Assembly (NCBI GenBank): GCA_947649125.1
Contig: CANSQL010000014.1
Span: 1-52,442 of the forward strand
Origin: an uncultured Erysipelotrichaceae bacterium
GTDB taxonomy: Bacteria; Bacillota_I; Bacilli_A; Erysipelotrichales; Erysipelotrichaceae
DNA: 52,442 nucleotides
Direction of reading: 5' to 3'
Numbering within the stretch: position 1 is the stretch's first letter; each line of letters opens with the position of its first letter. Positions 33,648 to 39,094 of this stretch are shown one piece after another. The notes under the pieces were generated by a model that made no database searches, had not been told where the DNA came from, and saw only the letters and a list, made by a program, of their open reading frames with translations. The position numbers were made by a program, and so were the translations under genes.

Positions 33648-34859
33648 TCATTTTTTTATTTTATGATGATAAAAAATCTGTTTCATATCATGAATCACCT
33701 GTTTTTCTGTCGGTTTGTGATTATAACGAAGTCGTTTTATCTGAATTCCTTCAATTCCCTGCAGCTGTATCAATTCATCGTTGAGTTGAATCGGATAAAT
33801 ACGCAGATCGATAGTATCACCGTTCTCATACATGATCCAAGTGATTTCATTGATAAACGGCTTCAGTTCCTTTATGACTGCTTCCTTCGTCTCTTTTTTT
33901 ATCAAAAGCTTTAACATAATACATGATTGTCGATAGCTCTCATGTAACGCTGTATCATGCAGCACAAAATGAATTTCATGGTTTAATAGGCCTTGGTGAT
34001 AAAATACAGCTTCCTGTTGATTCATTGTACGCTGATGATGAATATACAATCGATAATCACTGATTTCATACAAAAACGGATGAATTCCTAAGACGGACAA
34101 GACTTGATACAGCTTACTCCATAATGGATAAGACATCTCACATTGTGCAATACACCGATCCTCTTTGAGATGATAACACATTGCACCGTCTAATAATAAA
34201 AATGAATTCGGTAAAAAAGCAGGGGAAATACATTGATTCAGCTGTGCCGGTGTTTGAGGCGAAGTGATAAAAAGCTTCATTCCTTCCTTACTGAATCGAT
34301 TAAGATGATGCTGCATATAGTTGGAAAGACGTTGATTGCTTGTTAAATAGGATAAGGGTATTTCAAGCCATGTATCATTAGAAATACGATGCGGCAAATG
34401 AAGCGCATTTATTAGGAGTGCAATCAAGATACCGATCCAAGTATCAAGAATTCGATTCATCGCAAACAGCATCGGGTTTTGATCACTTCCGTGAGAAATA
34501 CAAATACATAAAAAGACAACGCAGCTCAAGTACGTGCAATCCGGCTGTTTTAGCAGCACGGTAGTATAGATCAAAGGAATCAAGGCAGCGGAAACAAGTA
34601 AATAATGAAGCCATGTATCGGCATTTATTGAAAGAAATCTTATAAAATAAAGCATTCCCATACCGGCGATACCGCCGATCAAGGTCGCAATCATTCTGTT
34701 TCTGCCCTTTGTTACGGAATCCGAAAGCTCTCTTTGCATACAAAGTATTGCCGCAATCGCTGAATAAAAAGGAATGCCTCCCCCTCTCAACAGATCAATC
34801 ATAAAACAAAGAAATACAGCCGCTGCGCTCTTTATCATTCTCATCCCGATTTTCGGCAT
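33648..34859 (-). CDS. FUSC/aromatic-acid-exporter-like membrane protein
   Basis: A 403-residue protein. The N-terminal half has about six hydrophobic helices (about 8-165), including the signature-like GIPFYSAIAAILCMQRELSDSVTKGRNRMIATLIGG split over two helices and matching the ArAE/FUSC family. The C-terminal half (about 170-403) is soluble and cytoplasmic, unlike anything I recognise. It may export aromatic acids or other weak acids. GAAGGTGATAAG precedes the ATG. It is divergent from the Veg-like gene. Confidence 0.75.
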   Translation of the reverse strand: MPKIGMRMIKSAAAVFLCFMIDLLRGGGIPFYSAIAAILCMQRELSDSVTKGRNRMIATLIGGIAGMGMLYFIRFLSINADTWLHYLLVSAALIPLIYTTVLLKQPDCTYLSCVVFLCICISHGSDQNPMLFAMNRILDTWIGILIALLINALHLPHRISNDTWLEIPLSYLTSNQRLSNYMQHHLNRFSKEGMKLFITSPQTPAQLNQCISPAFLPNSFLLLDGAMCYHLKEDRCIAQCEMSYPLWSKLYQVLSVLGIHPFLYEISDYRLYIHHQRTMNQQEAVFYHQGLLNHEIHFVLHDTALHESYRQSCIMLKLLIKKETKEAVIKELKPFINEITWIMYENGDTIDLRIYPIQLNDELIQLQGIEGIQIKRLRYNHKPTEKQVIHDMKQIFYHHKIKK

Positions 34860-34935: not shown

Positions 34936-35196
34936 ATGGATGCTTGTGTGACTAAAATAAAGGAAGAAATTGCGAAGCTGGAGGGACAGCGGGTTGATAT
35001 CGTTTATCATCCGCATTCAACGTATCGTATGATCAAACAAGGCGATGCGAAGGTTACGGCATTATTTCATCATTTTTTTGAGGTCGAGGTGGATACCAAG
35101 GAATACGGTACCTATAAGACAACGATTACGTATTTAGACGTTTATACAAAAAGCTGTGTGATTTCCGCACATAAAGAAAATCAGCCCGAAAGCTGA
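34936..35196 (+). CDS. Veg-like small protein
   Basis: An 86-residue protein. Its KIKEEIAKLEGQRVDIVYHPHSTYR, then FEVEVDTKEYGTYKTTITYLDVYTKS pattern aligns by eye with B. subtilis Veg (DIKRSL-x-x-LGKRLTLKAN, then the strand with SYSYADILT). Veg is a small protein linked to spore outgrowth and biofilm regulation. It is a beta-rich soluble protein. The start is preceded by AAAGGAAGTG. The gene ends inside a bidirectional terminator. Confidence 0.65.
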   Translation: MDACVTKIKEEIAKLEGQRVDIVYHPHSTYRMIKQGDAKVTALFHHFFEVEVDTKEYGTYKTTITYLDVYTKSCVISAHKENQPES

Positions 35197-35204
35197 TTTT
35201 TATT
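35177..35204. terminator. Bidirectional terminator between Veg-like gene and ftsX
   Basis: AAAATCAGC/GCTGATTTT stem with a 5-6 base loop; T-runs on both strands; overlaps the Veg-like stop codon. Confidence 0.85.
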
Positions 35205-36105
35205 ATCGTTTCCATCGCAGATATTTTGTCGTAGAAAGGAAGGAGCCTAAAATTCCTACCAGCATACCGGTTATCACCAATATGCCGATGATTTCAAATA
35301 CAAACGGATTGATCGGCTGGAATGCGAACACATTGCTGAAAAGCTGTCCGCCCATTGCCTTATACAAGTAAGAATAACCGAAATAAGCACCGATACAAGG
35401 CAGGACAGAGCCTAATAACCCGATAATCATGCCTTCGATCATAAACGGTGTTTTGATAAAGCTGTTGGTAGCGCCGACGTTTCGCATAATGGATATTTCG
35501 TTTGTGCGTGCATAAATGCCCATCTTGATTGTATTGCTGATTAAGAAGATTGCTAAAAAGCCCAGTAATCCAACAAAGATGATGATTCCGCTGCGCACTG
35601 TATTCAGCATTGAAATCAGCTGTGAAATACTGTTGCCGCCGTACATCGCATCATCTACGATATCTAATGAAATAATGGCTTCACTGATCGCTGCAATATT
35701 ATCAGGATCACTGACACTGACAAAGAAAGCGTTATGCAGGGGATTGTTTTCTCCCTCGTAGATGGAGAAAATTTCACCCTTTTCTGCGATCCACAGTTTC
35801 AGCTCGTTCTCCTTGCTTGACAGCTCTGCTTCTTTGACCCCTTCGATTGCTTCTATTTCAGCCTTTGCAGCCTGAAGCTGTTCCTCACTCACAATATTCT
35901 CACCCAATACGGCATGAATACGAATATCATCCTCAATATGGTTGGTAAAGCCGCTGACATTGCCGGCAATCATCAAAAATGCGGCAAGCAGAACTAATGT
36001 CACCATAACCGCTGAAGCTGCCGATAAAGTCATGACAAGATGCCTTACAAGACTTTTTACGGCAGATCGCATATGAAACGGAATGCTTTTGAAAAATTGT
36101 ATCAT
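35203..36105 (-). CDS. ftsX: FtsX-like permease, second copy
   Basis: A 300-residue cell-division ABC permease: cytoplasmic N-terminus, TM1 (about 25-50), an extracellular loop of about 100 residues, and TM2-4 (about 170-300) with NTIKMGIYARTNEISIMRNVGATNSFI, the FtsX hallmark. It relays FtsE ATP hydrolysis across the membrane to a peptidoglycan hydrolase. It shares long stretches with the other copy at 37510-38412, particularly the last helices (FLISNTIKM, IYAR, MRNVGATN, YFGYSYLY, KYLRWKR). It is the last gene of the operon, 28 bp after the M23 hydrolase. Confidence 0.92.
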   Translation of the reverse strand: MIQFFKSIPFHMRSAVKSLVRHLVMTLSAASAVMVTLVLLAAFLMIAGNVSGFTNHIEDDIRIHAVLGENIVSEEQLQAAKAEIEAIEGVKEAELSSKENELKLWIAEKGEIFSIYEGENNPLHNAFFVSVSDPDNIAAISEAIISLDIVDDAMYGGNSISQLISMLNTVRSGIIIFVGLLGFLAIFLISNTIKMGIYARTNEISIMRNVGATNSFIKTPFMIEGMIIGLLGSVLPCIGAYFGYSYLYKAMGGQLFSNVFAFQPINPFVFEIIGILVITGMLVGILGSFLSTTKYLRWKR

Positions 36106-36133
36106 ATATCTGTCTTACCGCCTTTCTATTTTA

Positions 36134-37513
36134 TTACCCGAAGAATTTCTCCGGTCGCTCTCGACAAGGTGTATACCCTCTTGATGCACAGCTTGTAGAT
36201 TGAGAACGCCATCCGCAGCCCCAAGCAAAATCTGCACCGCGTGAGAATTGTGCCACTGCAGCTTCTACTGACATATTTCCAAGGTTAAATACCTCAACAT
36301 GACAATGCGGCCCGGTACTGTTGCCGGTATGTCCTACCGATGCGATTCGCTGTCCCTGTGAAACAGCCATACCCGGGGAAGCTAAGAAATTCTCTTGTGC
36401 TAAATGGAAGAAGGAAATCGCATAGGTTGTACCGTTGACCGATCCGATCATATGAATTGTATTCCCGCCGCCGGCCGGATAACCGACCCAGTTACCCAAG
36501 AAACCGTTTGTTGTCGGAATCGGGTTATTCGCATATACGATAACACCGCCGATAGGCGCATATACCGGTGTTCCGATAGATGCCGCAAAATCCTTACCCG
36601 GATGGAAGCCTCCTCCGGGATATGCCCACGTACCGGCAGAAACATATGCCTTCTGTACCGGAATGATCCAGCCGTTGCTTTGCTCATAATTGAAATTTGC
36701 CGCATCAACACGCGCAATTTGACTTTGAATTGCCTGCTGTGCACTTTCTGCACTTCGCATTTTCTCTATCAAATCTGCTTCCTGTTTCAAGTATTCGCTC
36801 TTCAGCGCTTCCTGAGCTGCTTTTGCCTCAACTACTACAGCTTTATTATCTTCATTTTCCTTTTTTGCCGCTTCTTGATCCTTTTTCAAGCGTTCCTGTT
36901 CCTCTTTTTGCTGATCGAGCTTTGCTTTATCAGCCTCCAGTGCTTTTATTTCATCCTGGTCGTTTTCTGTGATACGGGCAATACCGTCCACAATACGTAC
37001 CATATCTACAAGGTCCTTTGCCCCCATGATAAACTCAACATAGGCATTTGTCCCGATAGAGGCCTGCTCACTTCTCATGCGATCCTTTATTTGATGATCG
37101 CGAAGCTCGATATCGGCTTCAGTCTGCTTGATTTCTACTTGAAGCTGCTTAATAACACCTTGAATTTGTTTGATTGCCGCTTCATTTTTAGCAATCTGAG
37201 CATCCAATTTATCAATAAGCGCTTGATTTTTATTAATTTCACTTTGAAGTGCATCAATATTTCCCTTCAAGCGTTCTATTGAGGAATTGATGCCGGCAAC
37301 TTGACCGCTCAAAGACTTATTTTGTTCACTCAGCCAGTTACGATAACGATTGCAGAGTGCAGTTGTTTCAGAATCCTTATTATATTTTTGACATACGGAA
37401 TCGTAATAGTCTTGATTATTCGCAAAATCCTCCGCATGTACAATATCACTCGCATACGGCATCATACATACCAACGCAAATACTGTCATCAATGCTGTTA
37501 ATTTCTTTTTCAT
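36134..37513 (-). CDS. Murein hydrolase activator / M23 endopeptidase with coiled coil (FtsEX partner)
   Basis: A 459-residue secreted protein: signal peptide (about 1-27, cleaved near VHA), a long coiled coil (about 60-270), and an M23 peptidase domain (about 290-415). Its zinc ligands are all present: H304 and D308 (HPGKD) and H403/H405 (HCH), so it is likely an active endopeptidase, not a degenerate EnvC activator. A Cys-rich tail (four Cys in the last 35 residues, ending CRERPEKFFG) may form disulphides. The start ATG at 37513 is placed by GAGGTGG and a 4-bp ATGA overlap with the upstream ftsX stop. It should be opened by FtsEX at the septum. Confidence 0.92.
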   Translation of the reverse strand: MKKKLTALMTVFALVCMMPYASDIVHAEDFANNQDYYDSVCQKYNKDSETTALCNRYRNWLSEQNKSLSGQVAGINSSIERLKGNIDALQSEINKNQALIDKLDAQIAKNEAAIKQIQGVIKQLQVEIKQTEADIELRDHQIKDRMRSEQASIGTNAYVEFIMGAKDLVDMVRIVDGIARITENDQDEIKALEADKAKLDQQKEEQERLKKDQEAAKKENEDNKAVVVEAKAAQEALKSEYLKQEADLIEKMRSAESAQQAIQSQIARVDAANFNYEQSNGWIIPVQKAYVSAGTWAYPGGGFHPGKDFAASIGTPVYAPIGGVIVYANNPIPTTNGFLGNWVGYPAGGGNTIHMIGSVNGTTYAISFFHLAQENFLASPGMAVSQGQRIASVGHTGNSTGPHCHVEVFNLGNMSVEAAVAQFSRGADFAWGCGWRSQSTSCASRGYTPCRERPEKFFG

Positions 37514-38412
37514 CGTTTCCACCTCAAATATTTAGATACTGCCATAAAGCTTCCGAGCATCCCGACAAAGACACCGCAGCCCAACAATATATAACAGATC
37601 TGCAGCGCAAACGGATATACCTCCTGCATTATGAGCATATTGGACAAAAACTGTCCGTTTAAAATATCATACAAATAGCTGTAGCCGAAATAAGTCAAAA
37701 TACACGGCAGCACTGCTCCGATAAAGCCGATTGCCAAGCCCTCAATAATAAACGGTACGCGAATAAAGCCGTTGGTAGCTCCGACATTACGCATAATAGC
37801 GATTTCGGTACTGCGGGCATAAATCGTCATTTTGATCGTATTTGAGATCAAGAACACTGCCAATAGACTTAACGCGCCGACAAAGATGAAGCCGCCGTTA
37901 CGAATTGCTTTAAAAAGCTCCACCATTACCGAGACCCCGTCACCGCCGTATTCTGCCTTATTGATTCCCTCTGTTGCATTCAAGGTAGCCGTTACCGGCT
38001 CAATATCCTCCGGTGCTGCAGTTTCGATGATGAATACATCACGCATCGGATTCGCATCACCTTCCTCATACATACCGAAAATTTCGCTGTTTTCCTCTTT
38101 CAGCTTCGCAAGCTCCTGATCCTTGCTGGAAAACTCCACACTCTTTACACCGGGAATGCTTTCCACCTGCCCCTGCAGCTTAGCGATATCATCCTCACCC
38201 TGTACCGCATCAATAGATACATGGATTCTGAAATCCGATTCTATATTCCTTGTAAAGCTTGAAATATTTCCCGTCAGCAGCATAAACATCGCCATTAAAA
38301 TCAAGGTCATCGTTACTGCCGAAATCGCAGAAAAAGCGGTTGCGCTGTGGCGAACCAATCCCTGTATTGCCGATTTGGTATGATAAGGCAATAAACGGAA
38401 AAATTTAATCAT
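37510..38412 (-). CDS. ftsX: FtsX-like permease, first copy
   Basis: A 300-residue paralogue of the ftsX at 35203-36105, with the same topology: TM1 about 25-50, an extracellular loop of about 100 residues, TM2-4 from about 170 to 300 with NTIKMTIYARSTEIAIMRNVGATNGFI and the C-terminal KYLRWKR. Its start lies inside the ftsE frame (38405-38412 overlap), the usual ftsE-ftsX arrangement. The hydrolase gene overlaps its stop. The extracellular loop differs clearly from the second copy, so the two may contact different sides of the coiled coil. Confidence 0.92.
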   Translation of the reverse strand: MIKFFRLLPYHTKSAIQGLVRHSATAFSAISAVTMTLILMAMFMLLTGNISSFTRNIESDFRIHVSIDAVQGEDDIAKLQGQVESIPGVKSVEFSSKDQELAKLKEENSEIFGMYEEGDANPMRDVFIIETAAPEDIEPVTATLNATEGINKAEYGGDGVSVMVELFKAIRNGGFIFVGALSLLAVFLISNTIKMTIYARSTEIAIMRNVGATNGFIRVPFIIEGLAIGFIGAVLPCILTYFGYSYLYDILNGQFLSNMLIMQEVYPFALQICYILLGCGVFVGMLGSFMAVSKYLRWKR

Positions 38413-39094
38413 GGTGGATATACCCGCCCTTCTGAATATCAGCTACGATATATCCTTCCTCCAATGCAATCGTACGTTTTTTATTCATATCAACCAAGTT
38501 GGCATCATGTGTAACCATTAAAATCGTTGTATTTTCCTCCTGATTGATCTTTTCAAGCAATTCCATAATTTCCTGACTTTTTTCAGGGTCAAGGTTTCCT
38601 GTCGGCTCATCCGCAATCAAAACACGCGGGCTGTTAGCGATAGCACGCCCGATTGTTGCACGCTGCTGCTGACCTCCGGAAAGTTCACGCGGAAAAGATT
38701 TCGCCTTATCCTCTAAAGAGACAAGCTCCAATATTTCGCGCACACGGCGGCGAATCGTAACCTTATCAAGGCCGATGACCTGCAGCGCAAATGCGATATT
38801 CTCGAATACGGTCAACTCAGGCAACAAACGGAAATCCTGAAATACGACGCCGATATTACGGCGATACAAAGGAACCTTAGAGTGACGAAGCTTGCCTACA
38901 TCCGTTCCGGCAACGACAACACGGCCGCTTGAGGGAATCAGCTCCCCGTCCAACAGCTTAATCAGTGTTGACTTTCCGCTTCCTGTAGGACCGATAATAT
39001 ACACAAACTCGCCCTCTTCAATATATAAGTTTACATCACGCAATGCGTGAACACCGTTTTTAAATGATTTTGATACGTTTTCCAGTAAGATCAC
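38405..39094 (-). CDS. ftsE: Cell-division ATP-binding protein FtsE
   Basis: A 229-residue ABC ATPase that works with FtsX to drive septal peptidoglycan hydrolysis. Walker A GPTGSGKST, Q-loop VFQDFRLLPELT, signature LSGGQQQRATIGRAIA, Walker B VLIADEPTGNLD, switch His MVTHD. The start is a GTG at 39094 placed by AGGAGGGG seven bases upstream; there is no better ATG. It is the only ftsE for two ftsX genes. An extended -10 box lies upstream. Confidence 0.95.
   Translation of the reverse strand: MILLENVSKSFKNGVHALRDVNLYIEEGEFVYIIGPTGSGKSTLIKLLDGELIPSSGRVVVAGTDVGKLRHSKVPLYRRNIGVVFQDFRLLPELTVFENIAFALQVIGLDKVTIRRRVREILELVSLEDKAKSFPRELSGGQQQRATIGRAIANSPRVLIADEPTGNLDPEKSQEIMELLEKINQEENTTILMVTHDANLVDMNKKRTIALEEGYIVADIQKGGYIHHD

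Follow-up and report, generated by a model that had tools for sequence, protein, structure and literature searches.

How a symmetric FtsX dimer grips and opens a single asymmetric coiled coil is a question in the mechanism of FtsEX systems. Two FtsX domains clasp a single EnvC molecule at two unlike sites, both of which engage the same FtsX surface, a mode of binding that has been called 'dual recognition' (PMC7668044). The binding of RipC in Mycobacterium tuberculosis is asymmetric as well, with the two FtsX domains responding differently, and there the FtsX dimer is formed via TM2 and TM3 (PMC10694151). In Streptococcus pneumoniae, the residues W123, F126 and N131 of FtsX matter for the binding of PcsB (PMC6355983). 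Elsewhere, the homodimer of LolF stands against the LolC/LolE heterodimer, which has split functions and one ATPase gene (PMC11784454).

Here we describe a locus in which one ftsE gene is accompanied by two diverged ftsX genes. The window, i.e., the whole stretch of DNA analyzed, spans positions 1 to 52,442 of contig CANSQL010000014.1 (GCA_947649125.1) of an uncultured Erysipelotrichaceae bacterium. The parts of the locus are known, and the two-FtsX, one-FtsE composition of FtsEX is new: in the literature searched we have found no description of FtsX paralogue pairs with one FtsE, nor of the age, the retention or the second origin (in Breznakia and strain MTC7) of this composition.

An FtsEX cluster with two ftsX genes

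The cluster is encoded on the minus strand, from 39094 to 35203, in the order ftsE–ftsX1–M23 hydrolase–ftsX2 (Table 1), and the gene order and coordinates given in the earlier note proved to be exact. FtsE scored 275 bits against the NCBIfam FtsE equivalog cut-off of 264.85, and FtsX1 and FtsX2 reached 322.7 and 311 bits, respectively, with the FtsX_Gpos profile (cut-off 225), each of them carrying FtsX_ECD and FtsX domains. The monomer models of both proteins (mean pLDDT 82–83) place the extracellular domain between TM1 and TM2, and their top PDB matches are FtsX, including 8ymc, 8i6o, 8tzj and 8idb. The hydrolase combines in one chain a Peptidase_M23 match (1e-15) and a CC_PcsB match (1.6e-13), and the metal-binding motifs HPGKD and HCHVE are present in its translation.

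Table 1. Features of the ftsEX cluster. The X-lobes were aligned to 6mk7, the extracellular loop of S. pneumoniae FtsX.
Feature	Position	Strand	Basis
ftsE, ATPase, 229 aa	38405..39094	-	FtsE equivalog profile match
ftsX1, 300 aa	37510..38412	-	FtsX_Gpos, FtsX_ECD and FtsX domains; X1 clade in trees
M23 endopeptidase, secreted, with PcsB-type coiled coil, 462 aa	36134..37522	-	domain matches and translation
ftsX2, duplicated FtsX, 300 aa	35203..36105	-	FtsX_Gpos; X2 clade 100/100
FtsX1 X-lobe, residues 97-124, predicted to grip the hydrolase	38041..38124	-	alignment to 6mk7; paralogue comparison
FtsX2 X-lobe, residues 97-124	35734..35817	-	alignment to 6mk7; paralogue comparison
GAAAGGCGG, probable ftsX2 ribosome-binding site	36118..36126	-	sequence; leader comparison
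terminator-like hairpin directly 3' of ftsX2	35177..35200	-	pattern scan; regional hairpin number near background

Genome-wide, no FtsE other than the locus copy passes the family cut-off, and there are exactly two FtsX_ECD genes, both in this locus, so that the single FtsE with two FtsX claimed from the window alone holds for the genome. The features required of an FtsEX system, i.e., an FtsE equivalog, an FtsX with four TM helices and an X-lobe within its FtsX_ECD domain, and a coiled-coil hydrolase partner, are all present. Whereas canonical homodimeric FtsEX has one FtsX gene per FtsE, two diverged FtsX share here the one FtsE of the genome, a difference that touches the sub-type and not the membership of the FtsEX family.

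The ftsE and ftsX1 genes overlap by 8 bp and ftsX1 and the M23 gene by 13 bp, but the M23 gene and ftsX2 are separated by a 28-bp gap that holds the probable ribosome-binding site of ftsX2. The tight overlaps described earlier are thus found at two of the junctions, and the fixed stoichiometry deduced from them is a weak argument because the M23 and ftsX2 genes do not overlap. The four genes are probably one operon ending after ftsX2, since a terminator-like hairpin lies there. A membrane protein gene on the same strand (33648-34859) adjoins the cluster beyond this hairpin.

Gene order in related genomes

The count of FtsX_ECD genes covered 148 genomes at the level of the order and 198 at that of the class. 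In the class sample, among the genomes listed, two or more copies are confined to the family of the window, and every FtsX_ECD-bearing genome listed outside this family has one copy. The gene orders, read from fetched loci, fall into five layouts (A, B, C, D and F). Layout A (E–X1–M23–X2) is that of the window and six relatives (L098–L103). Layout B (E–X1–M23–E–X2) is found in Longicatena caecimuris and in genome G105, and layout C (X1–M23–E–X2, with one FtsE) in 17 loci, whose hosts are Longicatena sp., Amedibacillus dolichus, Merdibacter, Faecalicoccus, Faecalitalea, Holdemanella, Floccifex, Ileibacterium sp., OPF54, M10-2 and others. A single FtsX (layout D, E–X–M23) is present in Traorella, Dielma, Erysipelothrix, Solobacterium and others, and layout F (E–X–X–M23) in Breznakia and strain MTC7. 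The latter ftsE-ftsX-ftsX-M23 loci are those of Breznakia pachnodae (L131:5310-10848), which has two tandem M23 genes, and of Erysipelotrichaceae bacterium MTC7 (L165:4264-8216).

This survey of ftsX copy number beside ftsE, which the earlier note had proposed, revealed that both FtsX are kept in 26/26 intact loci from about 10 genera, 24 of them with a single ftsE, while the two-ftsE state survives in the remaining two (L. caecimuris and G105). Genome-wide counts gave one FtsE for ten layout-C genomes and two for those of layout B. Both ftsX are intact, in the same arrangement, throughout the seven genomes of the window's genus; this arrangement is neither a decay product nor a local oddity and belongs to a group of gut bacteria. 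FtsX1 is always the FtsX adjoining the M23 gene, i.e., it occupies the ancestral position and is the positional descendant of the FtsX of the ancestral E-X-M23 order.

Some loci depart from these layouts. L. caecimuris and two related genomes contain a third FtsX gene directly upstream of a coiled-coil M23 gene, and ftsE is absent from the vicinity (L039:2924-5718, L046:4776-7216 and L049:2579-5139). The third FtsX forms its own clade (100/100) with the coupling motif conserved, and it probably borrows FtsE in trans; because these pairs lack an ftsE of their own and keep that motif, they suggest that several FtsX can use one FtsE. In a Traorella MAG, ftsE-ftsX and a separate ftsX-M23 were found on two contigs (L117 and L118), perhaps another case of one FtsE with two FtsX. 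In five genomes of the window's family (G041, G047, G062, G108 and G122; reported completeness 92-99%), neither an FtsE passing the search threshold nor an FtsX passing the family cut-off was found, and a loss of the whole FtsEX system is possible in them.

An apparent loss of FtsX1 in genome G143 (L068/L108) was discarded, as the N-terminus of FtsE is fused there to the C-terminus of FtsX1 in one ORF and the M23 gene of this locus contains ambiguous bases, which marks it as a part of the MAG that was collapsed or deleted. The chimeric FtsE/FtsX1 ORF at L186:815-1126, which comes from a MAG, probably arose when ftsE copies that are nearly identical were collapsed, or by a deletion in the MAG, and such an ORF is a trap for copy-number surveys.

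Origin of the two ftsX genes

In the maximum-likelihood tree all X2 sequences form one clade (100/100; SH-aLRT 100 in a larger tree), and all X1 sequences form another (71 ultrafast bootstrap/95 SH-aLRT; SH-aLRT 97 in the larger tree). Since X1 and X2 each fall in one clade, the trees point to a single old duplication preceding the split of these genera, which is common to Longicatena, Amedibacillus, Merdibacter, Faecalicoccus, Faecalitalea, Holdemanella, Floccifex and others. A recent duplication or gene conversion is ruled out by the separate old clades of X1 and X2, and the identity between X1 and X2 within a genome is scarcely above that between genomes. The four FtsX sequences of Breznakia and MTC7 group together (99/92), in two halves with supports of 100/95 and 100/97; this pair is the product of an independent, separate duplication.

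X1 holds the ancestral place before the M23 gene, and the most parsimonious account is therefore a duplication of ftsE–ftsX behind that gene. An ancestral ftsE-ftsX-M23 operon would have gained a second ftsE-ftsX there, giving the layout B that persists in Longicatena, and later the window's genus would have lost the second ftsE and layout C the first, with both ftsX always retained. We infer this order of losses from the layouts, and the FtsE tree is partly consistent with it: the E2 of Longicatena clusters (97) with the FtsE of A. dolichus and of Longicatena-type layout-C genomes, in a poorly resolved tree that leaves the FtsE of the window unplaced. An old ftsE-ftsX duplication followed by the loss of one ftsE thus adds, to what had been read in the window, a history that reaches beyond it.

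The leader of ftsX2 is possibly a remnant of the 3' end of the lost ftsE, although its similarity to ftsE 3' ends is marginal and weakly suggestive, as 2.5 to 31% of the controls score equally high. Few ribosome-binding sites read GGCGG, which occurs in 2 of 121 control leaders. The single-FtsX relatives do not show clearly that X1 and X2 divided the ancestral states between them: at 18 positions they match X1 in three, X2 in five and neither or a mixture in ten.

Selection and divergence of FtsX1 and FtsX2

A decaying second ftsX, a possibility raised together with the first description of the locus, is ruled out: the gene is intact in 7/7 congeners, where its dN/dS is ~0.03-0.07, besides being kept in every intact locus of the survey. 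The value among congeners is ~0.05 for X1 and equally low for M23, while the adjoining membrane protein gene evolves much faster than its neighbors (0.23–0.25). These ratios indicate strong purifying selection on both ftsX genes.

FtsX1 and FtsX2 share 47% identity across 301 columns, and the description of two 300-residue proteins with a common core and divergent extracellular loops was borne out, with identities in the window of 79% in the coupling helix, 65% in TM3 and 21-46% in the extracellular domain. To locate this divergence, paralogues within genomes were compared with orthologues between genomes. The helix that couples to FtsE is as similar between X1 and X2 (74%) as among orthologues (69-72%), being equally conserved in both, and TM3 behaves alike (48% vs 50-52%), whereas the X-lobe is less similar between paralogues (45%) than among orthologues (56-65%); the 65% corresponds to the X2 lobe, above that of X1. 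Fixed differences between X1 and X2 are enriched in the X-lobe and the following strand (8/21 positions vs 10/79 elsewhere; Fisher p=0.012), and the TM2/TM3 dimer surface shows little divergence.

The X1 lobe tends to E-L-D-x-L-I-E-E-N-G…N-P-L-Y-D-V-F-I-V-E, and the X2 lobe follows the pattern E-L-E-L-M-I-x-E-K-G-E-A-F-x-x-Y-R-G-E-x-N-P-L-S-N-A-F-F-V. At the positions that correspond to W123, F126 and N131 of S. pneumoniae, both lobes retain aromatic residues and the Asn, and for this reason each of them seems capable of binding a coiled coil.

One heterodimer or two complexes

The earlier note had offered two options, an obligate FtsX heterodimer and two alternative complexes, which were the right ones to weigh and are now partly supported. 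On balance, we lean toward the first, i.e., an FtsEX-type peptidoglycan-hydrolase switch whose FtsX is split into two specialized paralogues, X1 and X2, that pair as a heterodimer and sit on an FtsE dimer. One FtsE dimer would drive the FtsX1/FtsX2 heterodimer, the single antiparallel coiled coil of the M23 enzyme would offer two unequal faces, one to each X-lobe, and ATP cycling would release the M23 domain at the septum. If each lobe were specialized for one side of the coiled coil, shared coupling and membrane surfaces, differing lobes and joint retention with one FtsE would be expected. A shared complex is favored over two separate ones because A. dolichus (G077) and Merdibacter (G010) have two FtsX each, with one FtsE and exactly one CC_PcsB hydrolase. 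The low support for the monophyly of X1 (ultrafast bootstrap of only 71) counts against the heterodimer.

There is a smaller, though still appreciable, chance that one pool of FtsE serves two alternative homodimeric complexes, FtsE2-X1_2 and FtsE2-X2_2, which would differ in hydrolase, site or growth phase. The window's genus has a second CC_PcsB-M23 gene away from ftsEX (in the window's genome a 487-aa protein, L206:215-1678, i.e., G000 C1:215-1678), and hence the two FtsX could act on separate hydrolases. Two ftsE are retained in the Longicatena-like genomes, a state that fits two separate complexes, and a sharing of FtsE agrees with the orphan FtsX-M23 pairs as well as with genome G121, which has one FtsE, three FtsX and two CC-M23 proteins. 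The equal conservation of the coupling helix also fits, and the scant divergence of TM2 and TM3 would allow homodimers. This model is opposed by Amedibacillus and Merdibacter, where two FtsX would have to share the only CC_PcsB hydrolase, and by the fact that neither FtsX has been lost from any intact locus. As for the second coiled-coil M23 gene, its relative in genome G051 contains an in-frame TAG.

It seems improbable that X2 is a modulator, with X1 homodimers activating the hydrolase and X2 conditionally swapping in or recruiting the complex to the divisome. The ancestral place of X1 beside the M23 gene and the gap that precedes X2 in the window's genus would suit such a role, but the strong conservation of the X2 lobe, higher among orthologues than that of X1, argues for direct contact with the hydrolase. 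That X2 is a redundant or decaying duplicate is hardly credible, since, even if a 47% identical paralogue does lie beside the original, the duplication is old, all 26 loci keep it intact under strong purifying selection and X2 has its own conserved signature.

Returning to the heterodimer, its wider form, in which FtsX would be an obligate heterodimer in Erysipelotrichaceae and the one-FtsE/two-FtsX composition would have arisen at least twice, splitting dual recognition in parallel to the passage from LolF to LolC/LolE, seems to us evenly balanced between right and wrong. If true, the two positions of the dimer come from different genes, and thus each X-lobe, coupling helix and transmembrane surface could be mutated separately, which would show directly what either side of the FtsX dimer does. 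Such a heterodimer would also be a second case, beside that of LolF, of a type VII ABC homodimer becoming a heterodimer.

Comparison with known systems

The window shares with FtsEX-PcsB of S. pneumoniae and FtsEX-CwlO of Bacillus subtilis an FtsE, an X-lobed FtsX and a secreted coiled-coil hydrolase, which in those systems is activated directly, and the PcsB-binding positions of the pneumococcal FtsX are largely retained in both paralogues (PMC6355983). Those systems have a single FtsX gene, and hence a homodimer, unlike the window with its two diverged FtsX and one FtsE, and their catalytic domain is CHAP or NlpC/P60 instead of M23.

The fold of the FtsX of the window matches the structures cited above (8ymc, 8i6o, 8tzj and 8idb), a likeness to the FtsEX-EnvC and FtsEX-RipC systems of Escherichia coli, Pseudomonas aeruginosa and M. 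tuberculosis. There, one coiled coil is bound per FtsX dimer at two unlike sites (PMC7668044; PMC10694151), and one FtsX surface does both jobs, which in the window may be split between two proteins.

LolCDE, also of the type VII ABC superfamily, has one ATPase gene and two permease paralogues too, and its gene order lolC-lolD-lolE resembles the X1-M23-ftsE-X2 of layout C. LolCDE differs in that it extracts lipoproteins and has other periplasmic domains, and the FtsX of the window are not members of the LolC/LolE family (42 and 29 bits with the lolCE model, whose cut-off is 362). The change from a LolF homodimer to a LolC/LolE heterodimer is nevertheless the counterpart of the split proposed for FtsX (PMC11784454), and both the gene content and the conservation found here are consistent with a LolCDE-like heterodimeric architecture.
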